Below, piece by piece: positions 18,501 through 46,040 of a DNA stretch of 64,000 nucleotides. Each line of letters begins with the position of its first letter. Position 1 is the first letter of the stretch. Below the pieces are notes generated by a model. That model had not been told where the DNA came from and made no database searches. It worked only from the letters and a program-made list of their open reading frames with translations. A program made the translations under genes and the position numbers. The DNA comes from Heliopora coerulea (lineage: Eukaryota; Cnidaria; Anthozoa; Scleralcyonacea; Helioporidae), in NCBI GenBank assembly GCA_030142905.1, contig JASJOG010000003.1, positions 865,001 to 929,000 on the forward strand, written 5' to 3'.

Positions 18501-21500
18501 GTGATTTTGCATCAAATGAGTCTCTCAGAGTACGTCTCTTCTAAGTTAGAGGATGTAGAAGTTGGCTGTATTCTAGTGGTGTCTATTATTGGTTTAAACC
18601 TGGTTAAGGTTTCATACTTTTTGTGGAGCTTTGATATTGCGTGGGCACGAGCTGGTCTTGCAGCTTTTGGTCTCATTCTTTTGTTAGTTTCTTGATCAAT
18701 TTCACCTCGTTTTAGCAATGTTCACCAGTATTTTTGTATGGATCTCAGTCTGATTAAAGTGGAATCTTTACTGTTTCTTGGAATTTGGTTTAGTTAGACA
18801 ATAGATTTTTCACAAGTTGTTCGAAGTCAGTGCGTTTGATAATGACGATGGACACCTTAACCCTTGTCTAGTTTTAGGATGACATTCTCCTTCAGCAGTT
18901 CTTCGATGCATTGGATTTTCTTATTGTCTGTTTTTGCGTGTTTCTTGTCAAAGTCAAAACATTAAATACGAATGCTTGAAAATTGTTTTCAGCACGCTTA
19001 GTCGACCTGAAACGTTTCTCTAGTAGATCATTTCGTTCTGTCTGTTCCCAAACAGATTCAACAGACGCAATCAAATCAGAATCTTTTGGTTGAGAGGCAA
19101 TTCCATACTTTAAACCATATTCTAATGCCGAGTATTGTTCATTTGTAAGGTCAGTATTGGATTGGTTTACTATCAATTGATTTGGGTTCTGCTGGATACC
19201 ATCAGTGGTGTAGGTTATGGGGGGTATGACACCCCCAAAGTTTGCGAAAAAATAGAAAATTTGGGAAAAAAATAAATAGTAATTCGGGCAAAATTTGATA
19301 AGGTAAAGTAGGTCAAAATCCCTTGGTTACTAGTTTATATTTAATTTACGTATTGGGGTTGAGGAAGCGACGGTACATCATACATGGCCTGAATGGGCGT
19401 CGAATTAAATTTGGGCAAATTTTGAAAGTATACAATGGCAAATTAAGCTGGACCTGCCAATCAAAATGGGTTAACTACGCCCCTGGATATCATCTCTTAG
19501 TTGCGTTTCACTACTTAGGTTTTCGTATACGAGTTTAGCTATCCGGATTGCAACTGCAGCTACATAGGAAAAACATACTGAAACTTAAAACAAAAAATCA
19601 ACGAACATTCCAGCTCAAGGGAAATCGCAGTAAACCTACACATCGTTTCCTGTGAGTAAATTCCAACGTTAAGCTCCGTCGATTATTAAAAAGAATCATC
19701 GACTCATCAGACAACTGGAATATTGTCATTTATAAAGAAACACTTCATATCCATAACACGCAAGCCAACTCTCAACAATGGTTGAAAGCAACTAGAGAAC
19801 ATCAATTATTTAGCTAATTAGTGATTAGGGGCCGTTCACACGGAAATCGATCTAACTTGAATCGATCTGCGACCAATCGGAGGTCGATGCCAGTTTGCTT
19901 TGTGAGAGGGTGGAGGGTGTTGCAATCCCACATCCCATGACGTACTGCAATGTCACAACATGCATAGGAATGCTGATTATTGATAAGATAACGCTTAAGT
20001 CGTTAATCGTGATCCTGCAGGTCAGCAATTTTGCACAAGTTTAGAAAAAACTATCTCCTTGTATTGTTTAGGCCTACACTCACATAGACAATTTATTTCC
20101 ATGTGAAATATTTCGAAGACTACCAGGCCCATGAACGGATCCCCCGACTACATAATGAAAAACTTTGCATTAGCATTGCGCACCATTCTTGTAACAGCTC
20201 GCAACACTTGTAGCAATAATGTAGTATTCGTAATCCTAAAGGATGAAGTCTTATTACAGAACCAGCTGAACTCCTAATGGAAATGGAATCGGTAACTAGA
20301 TGGCTGGTGAGATACTCGAAGCAAAGATCTGTAGGGATTCATGCAAATGGTGAAAGGTTAAAAGTGAATAATGGACTGGTTGAGAGGAAATGGACCTTTC
20401 GAAACTTCCCCTTATTCACATATTCGTAACCTTCGATGCCCAAGTGAATCCATGTAGCTCAATGGTTAGAACATCTCAACGGTGATCACAAAGTTATGGC
20501 CTCGTTCCAGGCAATCCCTATTTAGGGATTACTTTTTAAAGTTGCCCCAAATCAACGAAAAATACAGTTCAAGAAAACAGTCTGATTAAGTGGCAAATGT
20601 TTAGGTAACTAGATGGTTATCTCTACAGGCAGCAACTGCATGCCTACTGGCCAAAAGGCTTTTTCAAATAAAAGTCGACCATCCAAACTTTAGCAGTGTT
20701 TCTTAAGGCCGACTTACCGGTACATTGTACCGCCTTTCCCCTATTACTGTACCGTTTTTCCCACTAGTTTAGGTTCTAAATATTTAGCTAATAGGAAAGA
20801 AATTCTCTGAAAGTTTCTTTTTACAGTTTTACAGATGTTTCGGAATAAAGCATATTAAAATTTTGTGCACTTTAGGACGATCCTTTCATGTGAATGGACC
20901 AGGGTCTTTTTTAACTATATATCTGGGGGGCAAATGCCCCCCCAGTGATCGGATTTGTCCCCCTAGCCACCGTACTTCTGTCCCTGGGAATTGGGAAAAT
21001 TATTTGCTGTTTAATTTTCCACGTTTACAAGTAAAAGGAAAATTTCCTTAAGTTCTGATTTGCTGAAGAATGTTGATCGATCAGTTCTTCTATTCATTCA
21101 AAAAGAAAAATTTATTGTACAGTGGTGCTCAAAAGTCTGAGTCCAGTCAATTCGGTTTGGGCTTTTTTTTTTATTTACATTATTTTTTCCCACTATACAT
21201 TATTTTTTCACGCAATATTGCATGTGCATAAAAGCAGCATGCAAATCAGATTGGAAAGGATTATGTTTAACAACAAGTGAACATCATTGTCAGTTAATAT
21301 TTTGTGTGTCCACCTTTTGCTTTTAACACTGCTTTAACTCTGCTTGGCATAGAGTGTACAAGTTTTCTGGTTACTTCTGTTTGAAGATTTTTCCAGCATT
21401 CATTAAGTACGTCCCATAGGTTGTTCAGACTTGTGGGATTATGTTTTACTTTCTCCCGCTTCAAATGCTCCCATAAATGCTCAATCGGATTTAAATCAGG

Positions 21501-24500
21501 AGATTGAGGTGGAAAATCCATAACCACCAGATCACCTTTTTGTTCCTTCTTTTTAAAATAATTTTTACACAGATGAGATGCATGTTTTGGATCGTTATCT
21601 TGTTGCAAGACAAAACCACGTCCACATAACTTCATGCCAGATGGTATGGCATGTCCTTGAAGGATGGAATGATACTTCTGTTTCGTGAGAGTGTCTTTAA
21701 TCCTGTAAAGATCACCAACACCATTATAGCTGAAGCAACCCCAAACCTGAATGCTTCCTCCACCATGCTTCACTGTTGATTTAAGGCAAGAATTTAGAAA
21801 TCTTTCATTCTTTCTACGTCTGACGTAGGTTCTCCGATTATTTCCGTATATCTCAAATTTAGATTCATCAACAAACAGCACATTTTGCCAATCTGGTATA
21901 ATTGCGATATGTCTTAGCCCATAACCAGCGCTTCCGTTTGTTTTGAGGTCTTAGCAGTGGTTTTGAAACTGCTACTCTTCCGTGTAGACCGCATTTAGCA
22001 AGTCTTCTTTGCACTGTTTGTCTGCTTAATGCTTTTTTTCGAGTCGCATTAATTACAGATTGAATGTTCCCAGCCGTTGCTCTACTGTTGCGTAAGGAGG
22101 TTGTCTTCATGTATTGATCTTCCCTTAACGTGGTTACCCTTGGCCTGCCAGATCTTGGTTTGGTAGAATATTTTCCAGTTTCCCGAAACCTTTGCAACGT
22201 TCGCTGAACAGCACCCTTTGAGACCTTTATCTTTGCAGCAATTGTGCGCTGTGAATACCCCTCATTGCTCAGTGCGATTATTTGGCCTCTTATCCCTTCA
22301 CTTAGTTCTTTTGCCATCCTTGTTCCAGATACGGGACGTAGGGACTTGTTGTAGGTTACAGTAGGCATTAAATACCATTAAAATTGAACAAAATGATTGT
22401 GGGAGGTAAAAACTGATGTCAATGCACATAGGGTAAAACAATAAATATATTTCACATTCCATTAGACATTATTTATAGTAAATTGGGAAAAAAAATCTAC
22501 TGGACTCAGACTTTTGAGCACCACTGTATGAACTAGCCTGATAAAATCAAACCCTATCTCATGCGTGCGTTTATATCACCTAAGTGTGATTTTTTTTGAC
22601 GAATAATTTTCGATTTTTTTCCCGCCTCTCTCCATGCCGCACTCTCTATATCAGTTTGATTACGTTTCCTCAAAATGTGTTTTTACTTTTTTTTCTGCGG
22701 ATTTTAAACTGAAAACACACCCCTCCCAGGAGCCCTTTTGAGAGGAAGTTTTCCACACATTCCTAACCTCCCCAACTCGCACCACTCAGGTGGACGGGCT
22801 ACGCTAGCTGCAAATTTGACATCCCATATTTCAGAGCAATTTTTACTTTTGCCCCCCTCCCCCCCCCCCCCCCAGTGAAAATTCCTTAAAAAAGGCACTG
22901 GAATGGGCAAGGGTTCCTTAGCACAATTATTTCCTCGCATCTGCCATCTTGAAAACTATGACGGAAACTGGGAAGTTGTCTCGTCCATGGTCTCGTCTGG
23001 TTCCCAGCTTTCCGCTCAATTTCTTGGGAGAAGCATGGTCACAAACTCTACCAGTTAAGGGTGGTGACAGAGACTGGTAACAAAATCAGATGTACCCCAT
23101 TCCCCATACAAGTACCCTGCTTCTCCTGCCTTAAGAAAAACACTGCAAAACATGCATCAATAAGATTCCCTCGTTTACCGTGTTTTGTTATGAGAATCCA
23201 ATCATTTGAAGAGTCATGTTTTCATCATGTTTTCTTGCATTTGGAATCTCTGTTGAAATAGTCGAACTTATGGTTAATGCTGTTGATAGGTTTTATTAAA
23301 AGGATAATTTTTGATGTCTACTAATGAAAAGCACTCCGTACGTGAATGATACAGCAGTTCAAGATTTACAGGATAATGTATTTGATTACTTGAAACGTTT
23401 ACGCTATGCTGCCAACCGTCAATTTTTGCCATTGTGTATTGGCAGCCATTATTTAATGTACAGTTTTTTGTTTCCTTTTTCAGTTTTCATTCACTTTGCT
23501 CAATCAGATAATGTCCATAGAAAAAATGCATGTAATAAAGTTGCTTTTGTATATTCTTCTTAAACACTTAGGAAAGTTGTGAGGCAGCTGAAGATAGTGT
23601 TCTAGACCTAGTGGATTTCTGTCACAGACAAGTTGCGAATCTTATTGGCAGGTAAACATCAAGCACCACAAGTGTGCTTACATTTTACAGTGGTATAGCA
23701 TATAAATTCTATAATGTAGAAATGTTGTTGCCGTAAGGTTCAAAACAAATTCTATATAGATTTTCTGTTTGAAACTATTTATCACAGAGGAACCTGTGAT
23801 GGAGAAACTACTTCTGACGAAGTAAAGAGAGGGAATTCCAACAATAAGGTTAGTTACCTTACCTATTTGTATAAACGTGCCATTGCCATAGAATTACAGT
23901 ATACGACTGCTACAGTTTTTGTTTTTCCCGCATACAAGTTTGGGTATCAGGCCATGTTATCAATACTTAATAATTGATAATTTACTACACTATCATGCCA
24001 AGAGAACACTATCATTCGAAGAGGACGCTGATAGAAAAGTGGCTAATTTAAGAAGTATCGAGATATTTCTAGTTTAATTTTTAGTTTGTTCAAGTGGTTT
24101 AAGTTAAAGGACAGTACATTAATTTGTAGTATAGTTTCCATGCGTAATTTTATTCATAATGAGATTTTGTTGATTGGCCTGAAAAGCCCTTTTTAGTGAG
24201 TGCAATAAAACGTATGTATGTATCGTGTAAGTCTTTATAATTACTGAAATTGTGTCTGATGAAACTAATAATTTTCTACCAAATATGATGTTTGTTTTCA
24301 CAACTACGCGAGTGTGGTATTAACGTTCCTGATAATCTTTCTACCAGGAGTTACTTACCCAAGCTGAAGAGATCAGATTTAATGTTAGTGTTAAAGCAGT
24401 TGCCGTATTACGATACATCATCGATCACATGTCAAGGTATTTGAACAGATGTTTAATTTAACAATGTCATATTTTGTGCATTGGATTGATCTGTTTAATC

Positions 24501-33310: not shown

Positions 33311-35047
33311 GTACTTGTCTCGGTCTCTCTTTGTATCCCAGCCCAGATTTCAGCCTCATTCTGTATTACCGACTCTGTCTGTCTCAGTAAATGTTCTGTC
33401 TTAGTTTCTGTCAGTCTCCACTTCTATTTCTTTCAGTGTCGTTATTTCTATAAATTTCTACATCCATTTTTACATTCTTAATACTTCTATTTCCAGTACG
33501 GAATATTCCTTTGATTGGAAATGAGCGATAGTTACATCAGTTTACAAATCTGGCCATAAGGAATTCGTGAATCGTTTAAAGGCAACTTCTGTTATATTGT
33601 CTACGTCAAAAGTTTTCCAAGTAATTATCTTCAATCAGTTATGCGTTGCTTGGTACAGTCGAACTGGAAAACACTTCTATGAAAATCTATCAAGGTATCT
33701 TTAATTGAAACACACGAAGCGGAAATCGAACCCGAGTTTAGAACACTCAAAACCTGGCATAAAGATAAACTGTCAAAAACCTCGATGCCAATATTAATGA
33801 CGTTTGATTACTAATTCTTTTTAAACTACTGTATTTTTTTTTATTTCTAGTTAGTTTTCATAGACGTTCTTCTCATAATGACTCCTTTAAGGATTCTTGA
33901 AATGTATGAAACACTGAACTGACTTACTTCCCCTACTGATCTCTTTTTGTTTGGTTGTTCATATTTTATAAAATATATTGTTGTAAAAAATATAACGAGG
34001 AGGACTGAAACTGTCATTCAAGGTAATCATAGTTGGGACGGACATGTGAAAAATCACATGCGTGAAGATCGTACAAATCATAGTTTGTGATCAATTTCGT
34101 GGTGCCCCTACTGCCATTAGAGGTGTGAACATTTGGCTACGTGCAGGGCAAAGGACTGGCACTGGGAGGTTCAGCCTTCAAACGTTCTCCAACTGTCTGT
34201 AATGATTCAGATAATGGAAAGCCCCAATTGGTTAGTAATCTCCACTCTTGTCTTAGTTTTGATGCGCGGTTAGTTATTATGTAATTGCAAAGACATAAAT
34301 GGCATTCATATTTTGAACCTTCGTAATCGGCTCTCGGCAGTAGTTCGAGTGTAGCGCTATTCTATGTAGCCACTTCGCATAACTACCGGGACGTTTGTGA
34401 TTTCTTTAACTTAGATGCAGTATGCAAACGAACGTAAGATTCATAATATAAGAAAATCGATACCTCAAAATTATCAAGTGTAAAAATACAAAACTAAGTG
34501 CGAAATAAAAAAAATTCTGTCGCATTGGGGCTACCTTACCTTTGACGCCCACAATGGAGGATTAGGAGAAGCACATTTTGCGCAAGTTCCATGGTCCCAC
34601 TCTTTTTGGGGAAATGTGCTTTGTCGTGATTGGTGGCGAAAGCAGTAGCGCATCGAAGAATTCTGCAAAAAGGGGGAACGATGGCAATTAAAGTGAACCC
34701 CTGGTGCATGATACGAAATGAGAACACTCCTTGGGCTTATGGTAAGAGTAAAAGAAACTATATCCGAGGATTTCTTTTGTTACTTTAGTGCTCTAGATTC
34801 CTGCAATGCAACGTTCATAACGCAATTATTGTAAGTAATATACCGTGCTTTAACTTATATCTCAGTTTACAACCAACTGTATCTTCGTTTTAAGCAAGAT
34901 ATAAGTTTGTGACACGCCCTTTTCCAGCATTTAAAGTGGCTTAGACCTGTAAGTAACCCCCTAGGTTCCCAACTTGGGAAGAAAAAAGTCGCTTGGACGT
35001 CAATAATTAACTGGTCCTTGCATGCCCGTCGCCTATAGTATCATATA
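33311..35047. other. Intergenic DNA, no feature supported
   Basis: No gene or element recognised. A plus-strand open stretch at about 34530-34640 encodes TFDAHNGGLGEAHFAQVPW, but I find no splice context or family for it. Confidence 0.4.
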
Positions 35048-35778
35048 CCGTGGAACTCCGTTAATACGGCAACCAACGGGCCATAAGTATCTGACCGTGT
35101 ATTAATGGGATGGCCGTATTGACGGGCTAGGGTCAAATTTCATGGCTGGACTCTTTCAAGTGACGTCATGACAGTTATATCACAATTGCACTTCTAAGCA
35201 ACTGTTCATAAGCATCCAGAATGCAGATATACTTTAACTGAAACGGAACTACGCAGTAAGATAAATATAAGGGAATTTTATAAACAGGAACAATCTGCTA
35301 TACATACTGTCCTTTTCAAAACAAAGGCCCCAATCTCTCCAATTTTACATGTCACCTTCAATAACATTAACTTTCAATAGGATTTTGAAAAAAAATCTGT
35401 GACTTTCGATTGACTTGTTCCGTGCAAGTACAATAACTTAATCACTTTGAAGTATAACGGATATTATTGTTTATCAAGTTTTATATTGCTGACTTTGTAA
35501 AGGAAATGGCTGTTTTCAACGACATGATATGTCGGACATTTTCAATTTGAACAGAAAATCAGTATTATTTCTCAAGATTTATTTTCGTTTGTTTTTTAAT
35601 CTGTCTTTGGAGTGCAAATTTCGTTTGAGTGGCCGTATTAACGAGGTGAATTTATAAAGAAATGTAAACGCTGGGATTTCACAATGTGGCCGTTGGCCGC
35701 ATTAACGGAGTTTTCATATAAGAAAATATATGGGCGTTTCGCCGAGACATAATAACGAGGTGGCCAGGGGTTCCACTG
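35048..35778. mobile_element. Non-autonomous Tigger/pogo-like element, 731 bp
   Basis: The left end is CCGTGGAACTCCGTTAATAC and the right end, read in reverse, CAGTGGAACCCCTGGCCACC. TA flanks both. Internal copies of GGCCGTATTAACG occur near both ends (about 35100-35125, 35630-35650 and 35690-35715). It is non-coding. The terminal design is the same as that of the element at 41.8-45.6 kb. Confidence 0.72.
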
Positions 35779-37349
35779 TATCTAGAAAGAGTAGTCTTTC
35801 TGTGTCGTACTTAGTGGGTGACTACTTTCAAAATCGTTTTATTTACAGTGATTAATCGATCAAGCTAACTGACAAATATTATACAGTTTATAAAGGGTCG
35901 TCAGGGTGGGTAACCAGGAAATGTGCCATGTCCCCCGCATGCTGAAATCCACAGTAAAATGTTGTTTTACCATAAAACAGAGCAACTATAGACAATCCGG
36001 ACATGCAAAACTTAGGGAAAAGTATAGATTAAGCTGGATTCAAGAAAACCACTGTACAAAGGGATTTTCATTGTATATTTTGGACCAGGAAATATGTCAA
36101 AAAGAAAAATACCGTGTATTTTGTAAGTATCTACTTAATGAAAATGATGAGAGACGTTGATCTTTATTGCCATTTGCCATTTCTACCGCTTTCTCTTGCA
36201 ACATAAATTGCTTTAAAAGACCTATTTTACATTGAATTACAATCAATGACGTACCATGACCTCCTTATATGGGGATGTCCAAACCTGTACACTCCGCTAC
36301 CTACTAAACCCTTTAATTAATAGTCAGGCCTGTTTTGCCAATAAATTAAATAATTTTTACTACATGACTATCGGCCAGTCAAGATTTTCCCTCAAACAGT
36401 GAACCCTGTTTTTAATAACAGCCGAATAGCTAACAAGTGTACGGTGTAACATCCTCACACCTTCATCCTCCTTCCCCCAAGGTATGCATTGCTCTAAAAC
36501 TAATTTCCTCGATCGTTAGACATAGAAAACCATTTAAAGCAACAATGGAACATTTTATGTACTGTTCCGCAGTGTATGTGCGACTTTCTTTGTCATAAAA
36601 ATATAAAATATAAGTTGGGGGACTAATTGTTTTTAGATGAGTTTTTTTTTTCTTTGTCTTGTCTTTTTTTCATGTTTTGTACTTTTTTTTCCATATGCAA
36701 TTTATGCATATATTTTTGCGTTTTGTGCAGCTCTATGTTGAAATATGTAAAAGGTATCGTTAATCTACGTCAACTAGACTGATATCTACTGACTGGGATG
36801 GCGTAGCATGTCGCGGATGTGAGGCTTCTACTATCCAATTTTTATAAAAACTAAGTCGAACCTGTTTCAAGCATATCCAATGCAGACAATGAGGGCTTTC
36901 AAAGTTTCTGTAATTTTCATATGAATATGATGCATTTCTATGGCTCAGAAGGGACAGGAAATTGAAATAAAGAACTGAAGCTGCACCCATAGGTTTTGGT
37001 ATCATGGGTGTCGACTTTTATTTTGTGGTTTCCAGGTGTAAGATACTAAGATTCCTTTTACGAGTAAGATTTTCTCACAGAGAACTTCCTCTTAATGTTA
37101 CCGACACCTCATTTCCCTAGGACAAACATCATGTTTGGTCCCGGCCGTTTATCCACTATTTTACGGTAACCAAAAACTCTCTAGAATGGAAAACGGACAC
37201 TTTCAAGTGTAAAAAGGTTCAAAATGCCTCCCAGAGTGGACGTAATGGCTGACTAATAGATTAGGATAATAAAGAACTTGAATTTGTCACAATAACGTAA
37301 ACGATCTTGTGTCCCAAAAATTAACAAATTCTTTGTAATTTATTTAACT
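35779..37349. other. Intergenic DNA, no feature supported
   Basis: The 84-codon plus frame at 35906-36160 and the 81-codon minus frame at 36760-37005 show no known domain. Several poly-T runs occur at 36630-36690. Confidence 0.4.
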
Positions 37350-40005
37350 AACCGACACAGGGCCGTTCAGAGAAATTTGGGGGCCCGGGGCAAAAATCGA
37401 CTTGGGGGCCCCACCCTCCATGGGAACAGTTTTACTCTCGTCTTTATCTATTGTACAGTATCTACCGTACAAAGGTGTAAAAATTATTTAAAAGTTTTTA
37501 CAATTGAATCAAATTTAAACAAGTTAAAAGTGTACTTTACGTGCGCATTTGAATGCAAACGAGTCAATAACGTCATCATAGTTAATTTTTCTTGCTATGT
37601 CACGCTTACTTGACAGCATGATTAGACTTGACATGCGTTCTTGCCCCATTGTGGATCTTCGACAGTTCTTAACTATACCAAGTTTACTAAAAGATCTTTC
37701 TTCTGATGAAACAGATACAGGTATGCTTACAAATAACCGTAGAGCAACACAAATTTGGGGAAGAATTGTCTGAAGACCTTTCTCATATATCTTATTCAAT
37801 AACGCAATAGACGATAGTTTTCCACCTAAAATATTGCTTTGCTTCAACCTATTCACATGGTGCATCTCTTCCAGAAGTTCTATTTTCATTTAAATCATAT
37901 GGATAAAAACTTGAAAGATCTTTGCAACGAATTTTCATTGTTTTTCCTGCTGCTTCGCCGCCTGTGTTGGGGACTTCAGAGCAATTCCATAAAAAGGAAA
38001 ACATGTCGTTTACTTGTTTAGTTTTTTCAAATCTGCATGCTATTTAGCAAATTACTCTATCCAAAGCAACATTAAAGACATTGATTTCGAATTCCCTTTC
38101 ATCGTTGCGCTGTTCATGTTCACTATCTCTGGGTTCATTGTGAAATGGTCTGGGAACTCTCCCCCTTGTTTCTTTAAAATGCTCACTTAAACCAAGAGAA
38201 GAAACAACAACCTTTGATTCCCTAAGATCACGCTTCACGATTCCCTCATGCGTTTTAAATCGTCTTGCAGTGACTCAATCAGATGCAATTCTTCATCAAT
38301 GGTGATCTTAGAAGCTTGAAGCAAAATACTAACATCATTTATAGTCTGTAATACCTTAAACCAAAAGGTTATAAGTAAGACAAACTCAAGTGATTGCAAC
38401 CATTGGATTAGGTTATCGACATCATCAGACACTTCACCAGGCAAATCATGATCTTTCAATCTTTTTAATGCATCCAAAATTTCTCTTGACCTACTTACTA
38501 AGGGCTTGACTGCCTCTATTCTAGCACTCCAACGAGTAGTAGATAATTTATGTAGGGATATACCAGTAGCCTCTTGCAAAATCTTCCAACGTGAAGGACT
38601 AGAGCTGAACAAATTGTATAACCTCTGAATGTTCCCAAAGAAGCTTTTTACAGTAGCTGACGACTCTGCTGCATGCACTCCACATGGATTAAGACTATGC
38701 GCACTACAAGGAGAAAATAACGCTTGAGGATTTTTCTCCAGAATTGCAGCTTGAGCTCCATTGTAAACCCCAGCCAAATTTGCACCATTGTCATATCCTT
38801 AACCTCTACAGTTTTTAAACTCAATATCATGTTCTTTAAGTACTTTGCATATTAACTCGGCAATATCCTTTCCTTTCTTTATCACAATCTTCCATTCTCA
38901 AAAATCTTTCACATATCTCCCAAACTTCATCATTTAAGTTTACATATCTTAAGATGAATGTTATTTGTTCTGTGTGGAAAACGTCCGGAGTACCATCAAC
39001 AATGATGCTGTAGTACATTGCTTGTTTAACTTCTTCCACAATAGCATTGACAACAACTTTAGAACATTCTTCAATAAATTCGTTTTGTGAACGTGGCGAT
39101 AGATAATGCGCTTGCATTCGGCTATTGTTTTCTTGATGTTTTTTTACTTTATCCAGATGTGACTTTAAAATATGATTGTGACCGCTAAACAATTCTAAGT
39201 TTCCAAGAAATAGACCATTATTTGGATTACCTAATTCAGTGGTTGATCCGCGAAAGGCAAGGTTTTGCTCTGATAAAAATAATAGCACGTCCAATATGCA
39301 TCGAAATATTTCACGCCATCTTGATATTTCGCTTTGTAACTGCCATTGAAGTTGCTGATTAATTCCAGTTGTTTTATGTAGGTTTTTTTCAAGTTCTTTC
39401 CACGTAATGTAACTTAAGAAATGCGACGAACTTCGTTGGTGGGCATCAATTTTTTCGTACAATTTTCTCCAGTTATCTTTATGTCCTGCATCCGGTCTTG
39501 TCAACAGGGATGTTTCAGAGGTCTTCTCTTTTTGTGATATTTCTTGAAACAGACAACATGGAAAGCAAAAGAGACCTTGTTTTGATGCACTCCATATCAA
39601 CCAATCTCTTTTTACCTTTTCGCCATTTGGCATTTCTTGACAAAAAATATTTTGAGGAAAGTTACGGCCAGAACTATCTCTGGGAAAAGACTTCGGATTT
39701 GCAGGCAGGCCAATTTTAGCAATATACTCCGTATCTTGTTTAGTTAGACGTATCCAACTTGAAGGATCGTTTGATAGTAAAGGTGCAAATGTTCTTTCAA
39801 CATCGGACGACGTTCCTTGTGTGGCTATTGTCTCACCAGGGCTTACTTGAGCGGTCATTGTCTCACCAGGGTCAGTATTAGTAATGGTATTTGCATTCGT
39901 AGATGTAATATTATCTCCTTCTACTTCGTCACAGCTACAGTCAAACCTGTATTAAGCGGACACCCTCGGGGAACAGGCTAGTGTCCGCTTAATAGAGGTG
40001 TCCGC

Positions 40006-40314
40006 TTAACAAAGGTTCTCGTCACCAGGCCCCTCCCCCCGTGGTACGGGCTGGGTCTTACCACCAGCAGCAGTACGATCGACAATGGATTCTTTTCTAA
40101 GAGTATCACAGGAATGTTTTTCCTTTTTATAGCAAGTGATACAATAAGCCACAGAAGCGCCTGCTTTCCATCCAGGTGTCTCTTCTGATGCGTAGACAGA
40201 ACAATTGTCTGATTTATTGCAAGTCGAAACATCACACGTCAGACATCTATACTTTGTCTCTTGTTTGCAATTCCAGCACGCGCCACCAGATTCAAAAGCA
40301 GTTGCACCAGCCAT
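40006..40314 (-). CDS. Cys-rich hypothetical protein, 102 residues, in Tigger-like element 1
   Basis: I do not recognise the family. The frame starts MAGATAFESGGACWNCKQET and has Cys pairs in CWNC, CLTCDVSTC, DNC and CITC, spaced like a zinc-binding fold, with a Trp and GW between. The last 25 residues run into the subterminal repeats, so the true C-terminus may be shorter, or an intron may be missed. It is divergent from the HIRAN remnant at 40482, sharing about 170 bp of upstream DNA. It could be the N-terminal zinc domain of the element's lost transposase, or a second cargo gene. No disruptive stop is present. Confidence 0.45.
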   Translation of the reverse strand: MAGATAFESGGACWNCKQETKYRCLTCDVSTCNKSDNCSVYASEETPGWKAGASVAYCITCYKKEKHSCDTLRKESIVDRTAAGGKTQPVPRGEGPGDENLC

Positions 40315-40481
40315 ACACCGTAGTCAGGGCAAGTCAGGTCATTACTTGAGCATCAAGTTGACTACAGGTTTTATGAAGGTGTTGGAATAAGACGCAAGAT
40401 GTGTAATACGATACACGAGCCTTATAGGCAATGACAGCCGCCATAACTAGCCGAATAACACTGAATGTTACAAACGAGATA

Positions 40482-40915
40482 ATGTCTTCTGAAATTGTGG
40501 TCGTAAAATCGTTCGTACGAGGGTATCATGCATACATGGAAATCTGGAATCCGAAAATCGACGAGGAATATTAATTGAAACGTGAACCTAGGAATACAAC
40601 TGATGAAAATGCAGTTGCGGTTGTTAAAACAACAGTTGTGTCTTGTGAGATGAAAACTGGATGCGCTCATCCTAACAATGTGTCAGCTAACATGGAGGTT
40701 GTTGGGCACATTCCAAAACTAATGGCAGTGTGGGTCACAAAGTTTCTCAAACGACAAACGAATACTGCAAAGTTATAATCAAAGGGAAACGGATAAATAG
40801 AGGTGCTGGATAAGGCTTGGAAATTCCTTGTTTATACGAGTTCCGAGGAGATCGGTTTTCATGCGAATGGTTGACCAATAAACTGTCCAAGGAAAACTTT
40901 GACATTGAGAAGTAA
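40482..40915 (+). pseudogene. HIRAN-domain protein, disrupted, in Tigger-like element 1
   Basis: The frame begins MSSEIVVVKSFVRGYHAYME and IWNPKIDEEY, stops at TAA (40572-40574), continues LKREPRNTTDENAVAVVK, then EVVGHIPKLMAVWVTKFLKR. After a frameshift near 40770 it gives KVIIKGKRINRGAG, stop, GLEIPCLYEFRGD and ends near 40915. The layout (aromatic YH.Y, W.P, E..N..D.NAVAV, VGHIP, final LEIP..Y.F) is that of the HIRAN domain, a DNA-binding module known from HLTF and Rad5 that binds 3' DNA ends. It is about 140 residues with no helicase attached. It is homologous across its length to the split copy at 42.1-44.9 kb. Confidence 0.7.
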
Positions 40916-42141
40916 ACTGAAGAAAATTTTATTGTTTGATGTAAAAATCTTATCTTAACGCACGTGTAATAATATGTAGTCGATTTAACAAATAGACTTT
41001 GAACCGATTGACAAATATCGTCATTAACATAGTGACTAACGTTATGTCTGTAAAGATTATGAAAAATTAGGAAAATTTTGTCCGTTTAACACAGGTTTTT
41101 TGTGTCTTTATTTACTAATTTATGTGTCCGCGTCCGCTTAATAGAGGTGTCCGCTTGATAGAGGTTTCATTAATAGGAATTATATGAGATTCAATTCGGG
41201 ACTTTACAAAGTGTCCGCTTAATACAGGGTGTCCGCTTAATGCAGGGCCGCTTAATACAGGTTTGACTGTAATTTCAACTTCTTGGGACTGAGATTCATT
41301 ACCTCTCTGGATTTTGGTGTATCAGTTTAGATCTTCTAGCGTTCTACGAGATTTTGCTTCATTTTGATCACGAATTTGCCTTTGTTTACGCTTGGCTGCA
41401 CCAGATAAATAAGAACGAGAAGACGCCATTTTGATTTACATGTAGCGTACGGAGATAGTCACAATTCAAGACTGTATACATACCACGTAAAAAGGGGACG
41501 TGACGGAAGGGAGCGTTTGCTATGTCATGCCTACGCGCATTATATTTAATTACGCACTATATTTAACTACATACAAAACTCGTTACATACATATTGATTG
41601 CGCAACTAAACACTGCCGCTGATCTACATATGTTTTTGAACTATCAACTATGTAATTAATTGCAGTATCTTTAACCATTTAATAATAGCGAACGCAACGT
41701 TTTTGACAACAGGAACGGCGACCGGAGATAAATTTTTGACCAATCAGAATTCTCGATCCATTCTTCTGGCGTTACTTTCCCGGTTTCCGTTATAAAAACG
41801 TTGCATGCTTAAGTTCCCTAATACAGTGGAACCCCGCCTTACGACCACCCCGTTAATACGACCACTTTTTTTTTCCCCGAATAAGAGCTAATTTTTTTTC
41901 TTATCTGAAAACCTCGTTAATACGACCAACGACCATATTTTGATGTCTTCTACTGCTTAATACGACCACTCAACGTGTTGAGTAATGCCTTTTTTGATAT
42001 CAAATCAAATTCTGATATGCAGTGTATAATTATCTTAATCAATTAAACACACGGCAAATAATTAATACTTAAACGTTTTCAATATTCATTTTAATTTTTA
42101 TTAAACAGATAGAACGTGATTAAATATGTTTTTGGGTCATT

Positions 42142-42447
42142 TTATCGTTTTCTTTCCTTCTTTTTTCTGCCACTTTCCTCTGCTGCTCTCTTTTGACCAC
42201 ATTCCATTTCGACTCTAACGGTTAGGTTATTCGGGATGTCCAGCAATTTCCTTAGCAAGTCAATGTTCTTTTCCTGCCCCATAAATTTGTAAATGTATGG
42301 AATCTCCATTCCATATCCCCCGCCCTGATTGACAGCTTTTCCGCTACCTTTAGCTTCTGCTTCACTGTCGCTCTTTGCTAAAAAATGGCGAACTATCCAA
42401 TTTCCATGATTTGTAGAAGCTAGAATCCGTTTCCAGCCGAAAATTTC
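42142..42447 (-). pseudogene. HIRAN-domain protein, C-terminal part, downstream of the Penelope insertion
   Basis: Reads EIFGWKRILASTNHGNWIVR, then GGGYGMEIPYIYKFMGQEK and IDLLRKLLDIPNNL, and ends in a basic tail GRKKKERKR before the stop. GGGYGMEIPYIYKF lines up with GAG-stop-GLEIPCLYEF of element 1. The apparent Met start lies inside the Penelope sequence and is not original. No stop or shift is seen in this half, so the gene may have been intact when the Penelope element arrived. Confidence 0.65.
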
Positions 42448-42677
42448 AGAAAATAAAGTAGAAAACATACTCCGAAAAATAGTTCCATCTTGAACTCAAA
42501 ATTTGAGAAAAACAAGCGGACACAGTGTTCAATAGTAATATTTCGAATTTATTACAAATTCATCATCAGACTAATTTACAAAAGCTGAACCTAGGTCAAT
42601 ATATAGGCACAAGCGTGGTGACATCATACAGGAAGAATGTGTAGGCGGAAGAAATTAGAGTGTGAATGAGTGATGTG

Positions 42678-43361
42678 TTATGTCAGGTCAAATAATGAGA
42701 GTTCTTTGCTGGCTTTGAGTCCTACATTTAGTTCTGGTTTTAGAGATTTGATGAAAAGTGCTTCCATTAGTAAAAGTCGGTTTTCGTTAAGTGAATTATT
42801 TGCATATAGTATTTTGTAGTTGTTAACGATGAGATTTGTTAGCTTGGAAACGTGTATCTGAGGAAGTGTTTTGTCCGTCAAGTCGGTTATGTTTTGTGTG
42901 ACAGTGTCTTGTGCGTTCTTGCATTCTAAAAAGTGTTGTCCTACTGCACTGGTGTCATGTTTAGTGGCATGTTCATGAAGTCTTGTTTTGAGGCACCTTT
43001 CGGTTTTTCCAATGTAAGAATAGCCGCATCCAGGACAGGTTATTTGGTAATTGGCATTAGAACGGACTGAAGGAGGAATTTTGTCTTTGTTGGATGTGAA
43101 AAATGCGATCTTTTTAGTGTCATAAATTACTACAAATTTAACCGGTCTTATAAAACATCGGCGTAATTTCTTTAAACATGACTTAACAATATTTTCTCCT
43201 TGGGTTCCAAGGTAAGGCAGGCGAATCCAAATTTTAGGCAAATTGTCATCATTGGTTTGCGATTGAGATGAAGAACAGGTTTTAGCAGAAGTACTAACTT
43301 TACGTTTAAACTTGTTAATCAGGAAATGTTTCAAAGAATTACGATATCCATTCCACGACAT
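42678..43361 (-). CDS. Penelope-like GIY-YIG endonuclease domain (left arm), partial protein
   Basis: 227 residues, C-terminal part of a Penelope-like polyprotein. The GIY-YIG domain is marked by ITCPGCGYSYIGKTERCLKT, then RLHEHATKH, and a downstream Glu in the ..ALFIKSLKPELN segment that fits the metal-binding Glu of the family. Upstream, IWIRLPYLGTQGENIVKSCL is the linker that follows the reverse transcriptase. The RT itself is absent. The first Met is internal to the original protein. This copy reads NSLNENRLL where the other arm reads NSLNKNRLL. Confidence 0.85.
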   Translation of the reverse strand: MSWNGYRNSLKHFLINKFKRKVSTSAKTCSSSQSQTNDDNLPKIWIRLPYLGTQGENIVKSCLKKLRRCFIRPVKFVVIYDTKKIAFFTSNKDKIPPSVRSNANYQITCPGCGYSYIGKTERCLKTRLHEHATKHDTSAVGQHFLECKNAQDTVTQNITDLTDKTLPQIHVSKLTNLIVNNYKILYANNSLNENRLLLMEALFIKSLKPELNVGLKASKELSLFDLT

Positions 43362-43810
43362 AAAAGACTTAATGTTTTTAACTTGGCTGTCAAATACGTT
43401 TTTAGTGCTGCAAATTTTGTGAGCGCGATCAAGGAGTGATCTTATCCATGCAGTTTTTCTTTGAAATGGTTCGAAACTTGTAAAATGGGTGTATTGTCCA
43501 GTGTGTGTAGCTTTTCGGTAAATATCGGTTCCATCAGCAGATATTTTTATGTCTAAGAAGTGGACAATGCCATCTGGAAAGGTGTCAGCTGTAACCAGAT
43601 GGCATTGTCCACTTCTTAGACATAAAAATATCTGCTGATGGAACCGATATTTACCGAAAAGCTACACACACTGGACAATACACCCATTTTACAAGTTTCG
43701 AACCATTTCAAAGAAAAACTGCATGGATAAGATCACTCCTTGATCGCGCTCACAAAATTTGCAGCACTAAAAACGTATTTGACAGCCAAGTTAAAAACAT
43801 TAAGTCTTTT

Positions 43811-44494
43811 ATGTCGTGGAATGGATATCGTAATTCTTTGAAACATTTCCTGATTAACAAGTTTAAACGTAAAGTTAGTACTTCTGCTAAAACCTGTTCT
43901 TCATCTCAATCGCAAACCAATGATGACAATTTGCCTAAAATTTGGATTCGCCTGCCTTACCTTGGAACCCAAGGAGAAAATATTGTTAAGTCATGTTTAA
44001 AGAAATTACGCCGATGTTTTATAAGACCGGTTAAATTTGTAGTAATTTATGACACTAAAAAGATCGCATTTTTCACATCCAACAAAGACAAAATTCCTCC
44101 TTCAGTCCGTTCTAATGCCAATTACCAAATAACCTGTCCTGGATGCGGCTATTCTTACATTGGAAAAACCGAAAGGTGCCTCAAAACAAGACTTCATGAA
44201 CATGCCACTAAACATGACACCAGTGCAGTAGGACAACACTTTTTAGAATGCAAGAACGCACAAGACACTGTCACACAAAACATAACCGACTTGACGGACA
44301 AAACACTTCCTCAGATACACGTTTCCAAGCTAACAAATCTCATCGTTAACAACTACAAAATACTATATGCAAATAATTCACTTAACAAAAACCGACTTTT
44401 ACTAATGGAAGCACTTTTCATCAAATCTCTAAAACCAGAACTAAATGTAGGACTCAAAGCCAGCAAAGAACTCTCATTATTTGACCTGACATAA
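43811..44494 (+). CDS. Penelope-like GIY-YIG endonuclease domain (right arm), partial protein
   Basis: Mirror copy of the 42678-43361 frame, 226 of 227 residues identical. It has the same GIY-YIG landmarks (YIGKT, R..EH, terminal Glu) and ends at LSLFDLT. The open frame continues upstream to the spacer without a reverse transcriptase. Being antisense to one another, transcripts of the two arms could pair over more than 1 kb. Confidence 0.85.
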   Translation: MSWNGYRNSLKHFLINKFKRKVSTSAKTCSSSQSQTNDDNLPKIWIRLPYLGTQGENIVKSCLKKLRRCFIRPVKFVVIYDTKKIAFFTSNKDKIPPSVRSNANYQITCPGCGYSYIGKTERCLKTRLHEHATKHDTSAVGQHFLECKNAQDTVTQNITDLTDKTLPQIHVSKLTNLIVNNYKILYANNSLNKNRLLLMEALFIKSLKPELNVGLKASKELSLFDLT

Positions 44495-44602
44495 CACATC
44501 ACTCATTCACACTCTAATTTCTTCCGCCTACACATTCTTCCTGTATGATGTCACCACGCTTGTGCCTATATATTGACCTAGGTTCAGCTTTTGTAAATTA
44601 GT

Positions 44603-44631
44603 CTGATGATGAATTTGTAATAAATTCGAAA
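44603..44631 (+). ncRNA. Hammerhead-ribozyme-like motif in the Penelope 3' region (also 42541-42569, minus strand)
   Basis: CTGATGA, then a hairpin of GAATTT (loop GTAAT) AAATTC, then GAAA, the order of a hammerhead core. A short AATA/TATT pairing follows, as in minimal stem III forms. One unpaired T separates the CTGATGA box from the stem, and I do not see a convincing stem I, so activity is uncertain. Hammerhead motifs are established features of Penelope-like elements. Confidence 0.45.
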
Positions 44632-44725
44632 TATTACTATTGAACACTGTGTCCGCTTGTTTTTCTCAAATTTTGAGTTCAAGATGGAACTATTTTTCGG
44701 AGTATGTTTTCTACTTTATTTTCTG

Positions 44726-44939
44726 TAGAAGCTAGTGCCCTTGGAATGTGACCAACTACATCTCCTTCCTTAATCACCGCAGTAGCGTTTTTGTCTTCTT
44801 CATTGTCATGTTCGTGCTTTAGTTCAAGAACTTCATCAATCTTGATTCCCCAGTATTCTTTGTAAACATGATATTCCCTTATCCAAGAAGGAACTTCGAT
44901 TACTTTTGTGCTAGAAATATTTTCCATCGGGCCAGACAT
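44726..44939 (-). pseudogene. HIRAN-domain protein, N-terminal part, upstream of the Penelope insertion
   Basis: Starts MSGPMENISSTKVIEVPSWI and continues REYHVYKEYWGIKIDEVLEL, KHEHDNEEDKNATAVIKEGD and VVGHIPRALAST, after which the frame enters the Penelope arm. The same landmarks as element 1 are present in the same order: YH.Y, W..KIDE, E..N..D.NA.AV, VVGHIP. The Met is preceded by a purine-rich, intron-free region and is likely the true start. Together with 42142-42447 it gives a protein of roughly 180 residues, so HIRAN is essentially the whole protein. Confidence 0.7.
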
Positions 44940-45146
44940 GACTCCTTCGACGTTACCGGCGGAAATACGAGTGTATACACGCGCAGGCTATGAAAAGCGC
45001 CGAATCTGTCATCGGTCCATATTTCACACTTTTTCTAATTTAATCAGTGCAAAATTTTCACGCATGTCTCGAGGATTTTCCTGATTTATTACCTTTTGTC
45101 CGAACGGACGTCGCAGCTTTGTGTATAAGCACTTTGACCAGTCACC

Positions 45147-45330
45147 ATGTCCTCAAATTGTAAGCGAAAACGGCAGGCAATATCCTCAATGCAGGATGCT
45201 TTGGATTTTCTCGAATAGAAAGGAAATTCAAAAACGGCAAATGAGCTCGCCAGAGTAATCTGCCAAGCTCAAACCGATTGGCTTTAGTGTCGGAAAAACC
45301 AACGGAAGCTTACAGATTTTTTTTAAACCT
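45147..45330 (+). pseudogene. Possible remnant of a Tigger/pogo transposase N-terminus (CENP-B-type HTH)
   Basis: MSSNCKRKRQAISSMQDAL, a stop, then KGNSKTANELARVICQAQ resembles the KRKR..S...K...L...G.SK..LA start of CENP-B/pogo helix-turn-helix domains. It is short and has two stops. The resemblance is by eye only. Confidence 0.35.
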
Positions 45331-46040
45331 AAAGAAATTTAAATAACTAATATAGGGCCTTATTATCAAGGTTATTCATCTCATTTGGTTAATTTTGTTG
45401 AGTTGTGTTCAGTTAATAAAATTTATTTGTGGATTATTTTGTGGTTTTAGCGTTATGCAAATTGAAATCTGACTGTTTGCCATGACGTCATTTAAAAAAA
45501 ACATTTGTTACGTATCTGATCCACCCCCCTTAATACGACCACCCCGTTAATACGACCAAATTTTTTCGGCCCAACGGTGGTCGTATTAACGGGGTTCCAC
45601 TGTATACATTTTGTTACATCTTTAATTTATTTCTTCCTTCTTCATTTTGGGGCCCCCCTTGAGCCTGGGGCCCGGGGCAAATTGCCCCCTTTGCCCCCCC
45701 CCCCTCTGAACGGCCCTGAACCGACATGCATTGAAGTTGCTCAAAACGTCAGTAGCTTGTTCTCTATCTTTTAACTTTTTCGACTACGAAAATGACCACC
45801 GCCACACGAGGTTGTCGAAATGTCAGTCACCAACAGTCTTTATTTCTGAAGACTATACTAACCTGGACCTTCTCCCATCACCAACATGTAACGTGATTCT
45901 GTCAGATGTAATGGATTTTACGATGGTTGGTGATGTATTTTCAAGAGTTCATGGATTTTCAAAATTTCTTAGAGGCCAATATCCTGAACCCTCCTTGTTG
46001 ACGCAAGGCCCCCACCCAAAACGTCTCTCTCTATCGTATT

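Follow-up and report, generated by a model that had tools for sequence, protein, structure and literature searches.

Introduction

The action of DDE transposases leaves 3' DNA ends free, and the HIRAN domain of HLTF is a module that binds such ends. HLTF itself is a double-stranded DNA (dsDNA) translocase and PCNA-polyubiquitin ligase of postreplication repair, and its HIRAN domain has been described in a dinucleotide-bound structure, with an N90/N91 mutant that loses function (PMC4666394). Pogo elements are described as having one or two open reading frames (ORFs) that encode transposases (PMC7386202), and pogo and Tigger transposases carry a PCNA-binding motif whose 'functional relevance ... 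remains unclear' (PMC5371812). The two subjects meet in a 64,000-nucleotide stretch of the Heliopora coerulea genome (contig JASJOG010000003.1, positions 865,001 to 929,000; hereafter the window), in which two short elements, A and B, each contain a HIRAN-type region. On balance, we read A and B as non-autonomous relatives of pogo/Tigger transposons that carry a transposase gene and a HIRAN gene head to head, the HIRAN protein probably handling 3' ends.

What sets these elements apart from described pogo and Tigger transposons is a second, divergent gene encoding HIRAN, which goes unmentioned in the main text of PMC7386202 and PMC7325037. Among the matches listed in the open-licence literature, we found no paper that describes a eukaryotic transposon carrying HIRAN, and nothing in that literature on HIRAN together with Tigger. 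A likeness can be drawn with fungal TET/JBP dioxygenase transposons, where a DNA-acting accessory protein is mobile within many transposon lineages; there, however, the accessory protein is a methylcytosine enzyme found in many unrelated superfamilies, whereas HIRAN accompanies one transposase superfamily, in an animal (as far as described in PMC12730594).

Results

The genome that we searched (430 Mb, 769 contigs) contains elements in which both genes lie within one pair of terminal inverted repeats (TIRs) bounded by TA. L072 (C79:3018550-3021850) measures 3016 bp, with TA on both sides, and holds an uninterrupted frame for a 542-aa transposase head to head with one for a 156-aa HIRAN protein. 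Both frames are open in three further copies of this type (C83, C231 and C597), and C74 (L059 with L068) is nearly the same element, having both ends and one stop in the transposase. The same head-to-head layout is found in L071, an A-like element of 2778 bp with both ends, TA and a frameshifted transposase, and in L066, of type M. C24 (L063 with L069) is a two-gene element of B type, whose B-type ends, 2869 bp apart, enclose HIRAN and a frameshifted transposase. Full-length elements with a DDE transposase and HIRAN, which the first-pass annotation of the window had proposed to look for, therefore exist with both ends in L072, C74, C24 and L071, and with one end found in L066.

The transposases resemble those of pogo and Tigger. 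That of L072 matches Pfam DDE_1 (134.5 bits), HTH_Tnp_Tc5 (72.2 bits) and, under the cut-off of 21.2, CENP-B_N (19.0 bits), and that of L066 matches CENP-B_N above the cut-off (32.5 bits) and DDE_1 (75.2 bits); none of these domains lies within window elements A and B. TA duplications are a further likeness, and the ends of A, B, L072 and L071 start with CAGT, which we take to be the Tigger design. The catalytic spacing of L072, DD32D, falls within the DD29-36D range published for Tigger (PMC7386202, PMC7325037). The transposase C-terminus partly resembles a PCNA-interacting-peptide (PIP) motif: tails fitting Qxx[I/L/M]xxF[F/Y] occur in the remnant in window element B (QRKLTDFF), in the L005 remnant (QLKLTDFF) and in L071 (QKTITSFF), and those of L072 and C24 are one residue off.

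Because each HIRAN search returned about the 150 best-scored matches, HIRAN counts here are lower bounds, and an unlisted HIRAN does not prove absence. Among the best 150 DDE_1 matches, at least 23 have a HIRAN head to head with them, 1.0-1.7 kb away, where 0.77 would be expected within 4 kb; two more (C114 and C767) emerged after another HIRAN list was added, and C109:75966, with HIRAN 2.9 kb downstream in another layout, was scored as a miss. With the C24 transposase piece as query, 144 of 150 listed places were counted, six second pieces being left out. In at least 72 of the 144, a HIRAN lies on the opposite strand no more than 2.5 kb upstream (0.13 expected); no listed HIRAN lies upstream in the orientation of the transposase or, on either strand, within 3.5 kb downstream. 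Sorted by identity to the query, places with HIRAN number at least 20 of 51 (77% and over), at least 17 of 21 (54-73%) and at least 35 of 72 (42-49%); for the 78 places of the L072-transposase query the figures are at least 15 of 19 (80% and over), 8 of 39 (50-73%) and 8 of 20 (42-44%). The head-to-head layout is thus shared by transposases with identities as low as 42-49%.

Purifying selection on the two genes is similar between subfamilies. Silent sites are near saturation (proportion of differing silent sites, pS, 0.68-0.88), and the corresponding proportion for changing sites, pN, is 0.23-0.41. For HIRAN and transposase of the same elements, pN/pS is 0.28 and 0.30 (L-B), 0.41 and 0.41 (L-M), and 0.45 and 0.51 (L-A), whereas neutral simulation at saturation gave a mean of 0.97 and a minimum of 0.80 in 300 runs. 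Measured from L, HIRAN and transposase identities fall in the same order. In long-lived lineages HIRAN has thus been retained with about the same strictness as the transposase, and this similar constraint, together with the fixed layout, argues that HIRAN is a conserved second gene and not a passenger.

In the four types read (L, B, M and A), the HIRAN protein stands alone, has about 130-180 aa and ends in a basic C-terminal tail. Scores against Pfam PF08797 (cut-off 24.7 bits) are 38.9 for L059, 39.1 for L072 and 33.2 for L071, all above, and 19.2 for L066, below. A profile of 33 relatives finds HLTF HIRAN as its first PDB match (E 2.4e-5), and the fold predicted for the relative P0001, modelled in place of the broken window copies, matches HLTF HIRAN; positions aligned to HLTF N91, D94 and H110 are kept among the relatives. 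The transposon protein differs from HLTF/Rad5 HIRAN (PDB 4xzf, 4xzg, 4s0n, 6kcs, 5bnh) in being small, free-standing and transposon-encoded, with no SNF2 or RING domain found alongside, and in having a motif of its own, NRGGGYG(L/M)E(V/I)PC-like, while the equivalent of Y93 is not conserved. Named protein relatives occur in Porites harrisoni and the sponge Amphimedon queenslandica. A prokaryotic or viral source of HIRAN was considered and rejected, no relative being confirmed among 119 + 31 viral-contig and 42 genome-contig pattern matches, made with short patterns that distant relatives could escape. Tetrapeptides from the element ends occur in 7 of 220 foreign proteins against 3.0 expected, a count that we did not use, though P0025 and P0097 look suggestive.

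HIRAN is numerous in this genome: P0001 as query gave 152 matches (best 150 of 1525 candidates scored). Among the 28 top loci examined (L001-L008 and L039-L058), HIRAN lies between both ends in 24, as the first-pass annotation had anticipated when it suggested checking HIRAN matches for flanking inverted ends; the spacing is 1398-1535 bp in 23 and 2908 bp in one, and the remaining four (L004, L053, L055 and L058) show a single end each. TA adjoins both sides in 21 of these 24 B-type loci (exceptions L043, L044 and L047), and HIRAN is in frame and open in 19, with stops in four and a frameshift in one. L008 and L050 share flanks and are probably one duplicated insertion. Nine loci picked for divergent HIRAN have both ends in four cases (L060, L064 and, after extension, C74 and C24), one end in four (L061, L062, L066 and L067) and none in L065, in stretches that may be too short. 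In a flank control of 145 kb (flanks of 29 A copies plus the window outside A and B), HIRAN near L032, L034 and L038 belonged to neighbouring A copies and one other weak HIRAN place was seen (L012); the window outside A and B gave no HIRAN, and the 145 kb gave no match to the L072 transposase. Another numerous HIRAN subfamily (C1:1697411, C178:310675, C759:3263128 and others), with at least 19 matches, has a 130-aa frame with one TGA and may represent a further burst whose copies have a defect in common.

The window holds two derivatives of such elements. The first-pass annotation had described two TA-flanked elements of the same end design, and their coordinates, TA duplications and inverted ends (24 bp in A, 16 bp in B) bear this out; they are not isolated elements, as both belong to high-copy families. 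Element A comprises the following features:

39936-41271, plus strand: element A, 1336 bp including TA duplications, short and HIRAN-bearing, without a transposase domain (from inverted ends and genome copies)
39936-39959, plus strand: left end, TA followed by CAGTCAAACCTGTATTAAGCGG (24-bp perfect inverted ends)
41248-41271, minus strand: right end (24-bp perfect inverted ends)
40485-40891, plus strand: HIRAN pseudogene, in one frame at 40485-40763 and in another frame at 40775-40891 (from Pfam and translation)
40006-40323, minus strand: cysteine-rich ORF of 105 aa, a length found in 23 of 30 copies; no Pfam family scores above its cut-off

The HIRAN of A contains two in-frame stops, one per piece, with a frameshift between the pieces, and matches Pfam HIRAN at 21.4 bits (E 2.2e-4), under the curated cut-off of 24.7. 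As a query, A found 45 matches (best 40 of 896 candidates scored), of which 41, the window's own included, are near full length at 97-100% identity. The 30 copies compared have 30 different flanks and a mean pairwise identity of 99.1%; TA adjoins both ends in 29, the match of L019 ending short of one end. Again counting the window's own copy, the first stop is common to 29 of the 30 and the second to all 30, so that A multiplied after the death of its HIRAN, using proteins made elsewhere. Joining the flanks of A restores a single open frame of an older hAT-like gene, which marks A as a clean insertion; the older ORF, of hAT type (DUF4371), spans 38836-41321 of the window on the minus strand and hosts A as a nested insertion. 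The cysteine-rich ORF occupies the position expected of a transposase C-terminus, without resemblance to one.

Element B comprises the following:

41822-45604, HIRAN on the minus strand: element B (from inverted ends and TA duplications)
41822-41836, plus strand: left end (TACAGTGGAACCCCG...)
45590-45604, minus strand: right end
44736-44939, minus strand: N-terminal part of HIRAN (MSGPMEN...GHIPRA; from Pfam)
42145-42423, minus strand: C-terminal part of HIRAN (LASTNHG...GGGYGMEIPYIYKF...KKKERKR)
42424-44723, no strand: palindromic insertion, presumably Penelope-like, with a 12-bp duplication TGTAGAAGCTAG at 42412-42423 and 44724-44735
45147-45326, plus strand: remnant of a transposase in divergent position, in which the N-terminus is joined to the C-terminus (MSSNCKRKRQ...QRKLTDFF) and stops interrupt the frame

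The 16-bp inverted ends of B lie at 41821-41836 and 45590-45605. Both parts of its HIRAN are open, separated by the 2.3-kb palindromic insertion, and the N-terminal half scores 29.0 bits against Pfam HIRAN (E 9.6e-7), above the cut-off of 24.7. The comparison of hidden Markov models proposed in the first-pass annotation thus does find HIRAN similarity, and the claim of a HIRAN region in each element holds in so far as both match the family (A under the cut-off), although A carries a pseudogene and B a split gene; neither element could make an intact HIRAN protein. The insertion consists of two arms of 1131 nt each (42447-43577 and 43595-44725), 100% complementary around a 17-nt spacer; its Pfam matches are GIY-YIG families with scores under the cut-off, and the name Penelope-like was given by eye. 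With the insertion removed, B would measure about 1.5 kb. Contig C157 has, from match positions, two HIRAN halves spaced 2510 bp, as in B, and this equal spacing makes it unlikely that the inverted insertion is a one-off assembly error. In short B copies, the opposite-strand ORF joins the N-terminus of the transposase to its C-terminus, which marks these copies as deletion derivatives; L062 has the same form in its own subfamily.

A lineage related to B apparently dispenses with HIRAN. The 22-nt left end of B/L type, TACAGTGGAACCCCGNNNTACG, occurs at 216 exact places in the genome against 0 for a reversed control. Of the 100 places listed, at least 36 have HIRAN just inside, its 3' end facing the element end, another 4 have a listed DDE_1 nearby but no listed HIRAN, and 60 have neither listed; at C1:9023507 the listed DDE_1 is outside the element, but further search shows a transposase inside. 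In the 17 elements with both end and transposase listed, the distances between end and transposase start fall into two classes, a bimodal pattern: eight lie at 1015-1133 bp, all with listed HIRAN, and nine at 403-474 bp, none with listed HIRAN. The shorter distance leaves no room for HIRAN there. Transposases of the short class are 80-93% identical to the C24 piece, and nine transposases of this lineage, two of which (C63 and C112) also belong to the nine with measured distances, have open frames of 545-552 aa, are 90-91% identical and have no listed HIRAN. Since B itself has HIRAN, we take the lineage to have lost it and then to have prospered. The lineage (C112:2713439-2715526, C63, C124, C99 and others), with its B/L-type end, would amount to a natural HIRAN deletion.

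A and B are both bounded by TA and inverted ends in which CAGTNNAACC is followed by TTAANNCG-type units. The window has five exact copies of TACAGTNNAACC: the four ends of A and B account for four, and the fifth marks an end of a third element (35769-35780). If one mismatch is allowed, it has 10 window matches against 4.4 expected, and 2 of 100 shuffles reach 10. The third element, of 0.7 kb (35046-35780), has similar ends, TACCGTGGAACTCC on the left and TACAGTGGAACCCC on the right, and inspection by eye revealed no HIRAN in it. Elsewhere in the window, at 21294-22377 on the minus strand, ORF pieces resemble, by eye, a Tc1/mariner-type transposase.

Discussion

The strict retention of HIRAN suggests that the protein helps the elements to move or helps the cut DNA to be mended. 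If a second gene of another kind is retained with about the same strictness as the transposase, a step beyond cutting and joining would pay for the element. The transposase (HTH_Tnp_Tc5, DDE_1 and CENP-B_N-like) and the stand-alone HIRAN protein are encoded within one element. We propose that HIRAN would bind free 3' ends as HLTF HIRAN does, and that it would handle the 3' ends exposed by DDE cleavage, be it on the element or at the donor site, or, alternatively, mark DNA under replication for a transposase whose C-terminal motif is PCNA-binding-like. By holding or protecting 3' ends, whether at forks or where the element is excised, it could aid repair or re-insertion, the role that we judge most likely from the 3' ends generated by DDE enzymes, the 3'-end binding of HLTF HIRAN and the PCNA-binding-like tail. 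Short copies, with HIRAN broken (A) or the transposase deleted (B), would be mobilised by proteins from other copies, and one lineage would have dropped HIRAN.

Several observations weigh against so direct a role. Within the B burst, in a sample chosen by HIRAN similarity and hence favouring intact frames, the ratio of changing to silent differences in HIRAN is near neutral (0.89 for singletons, 1.08 for variants in at least two copies), which we ascribe to decay of copies after landing. The source from which A spread already had a broken HIRAN, so HIRAN was not needed in cis, and no source of A's own transposase was found in the genome. HIRAN was apparently lost in the B-related lineage, judged from the distances and the matches listed, and 72 of the 144 transposase places have no listed HIRAN. 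For the pairs B-M, B-A and M-A, HIRAN identities are 36.2, 35.0 and 38.2% against 51.4, 40.7 and 43.5% for the transposase, so that HIRAN is flatter and does not track it closely. The position aligned to HLTF Y93, which stacks on DNA, is Tyr in 1 of 33 sequences, and the tails of L072 (QSKVTDFF, V for I/L/M) and C24 (HRKLTDFF, H for Q) are one residue off the PIP-like consensus. HIRAN is accordingly an accessory protein, not essential in cis, as the apparently HIRAN-less lineage, the A burst with broken HIRAN and the neutral B burst indicate; the same three observations led us to reject the notion that every copy needs it. The first-pass proposal of HIRAN as a stable cargo survives in the similar constraint, the broadly parallel divergence and the layout (72 of 144 against 0 of 144), but not in the lineage that apparently lost it.

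A regulatory or anti-host role for HIRAN is the main rival to an aid in repair or re-insertion. As a regulator, HIRAN would restrain transposition or host damage, either by binding to the transpososome or to the repeated TTAANNCG units or by competing at 3' ends, and lineages that lose or break it would burst. Bursts did arise from copies with HIRAN broken (A), neutral (B) or apparently absent (the lineage with a transposase of about 551 aa), and a divergent promoter region could allow joint control. Deletion derivatives of any transposon often burst, however, so that bursts alone are no proof of inhibition; copies of L072 type whose HIRAN is intact are recent as well, six being 99-100% identical in the transposase and four of them open; and HIRAN folds recognise DNA ends, not specific sites in a duplex. 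We regard regulation as rather unlikely. A little less likely again is an anti-host protein that shields transposition intermediates from HLTF/Rad5-type repair or DNA-damage signalling, or diverts these. The HIRAN of HLTF, the dsDNA translocase and PCNA-polyubiquitin ligase (PMC4666394), is the closest solved relative, but what points to this role is sequence and fold.

That HIRAN is a captured host gene, a passenger without function for the element, would fit the neutral B burst, the shared stops of A and the apparently HIRAN-less relatives; it is highly improbable given purifying selection between subfamilies about equal to that on the transposase, the same order of divergence from L and an orientation found in 72 of 144 places against 0, and parallel divergence, similar constraint and fixed layout counts led us to reject passenger and chance neighbourhood alike. 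Chance or misassembly, a pattern of which could be the perfect 1131-nt palindrome of B, deserves next to no credence, as 24 of 28 loci share the structure with different flanks (L008/L050 excepted), C157 repeats the 2510-bp spacing and 0.13 divergent pairs are expected by chance.

Returning to HIRAN as an aid in repair or re-insertion, a bolder and distinctly tentative extension would make it a core partner, of ancient origin, in a large Tigger clade of animals. The transposase would hold PCNA and HIRAN the 3' ends, a two-protein machine linking excision and insertion to forks or to replication-dependent gap repair and so raising copy number, with the end-reading module of the host's HLTF/Rad5 co-opted for the purpose; the B lineage would have split into transposase-only and HIRAN-only elements, possibly complementing each other. 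HIRAN-only B copies might thus supply HIRAN in trans to HIRAN-less elements. The known substrate of HIRAN, DNA ends at forks, offers a testable link of transposition to replication and repair, in line with the PCNA motif of pogo. A transposon origin may also explain three 'HIRAN domain-containing protein' entries of Amphimedon queenslandica and a multi-member hypothetical protein of Porites harrisoni.

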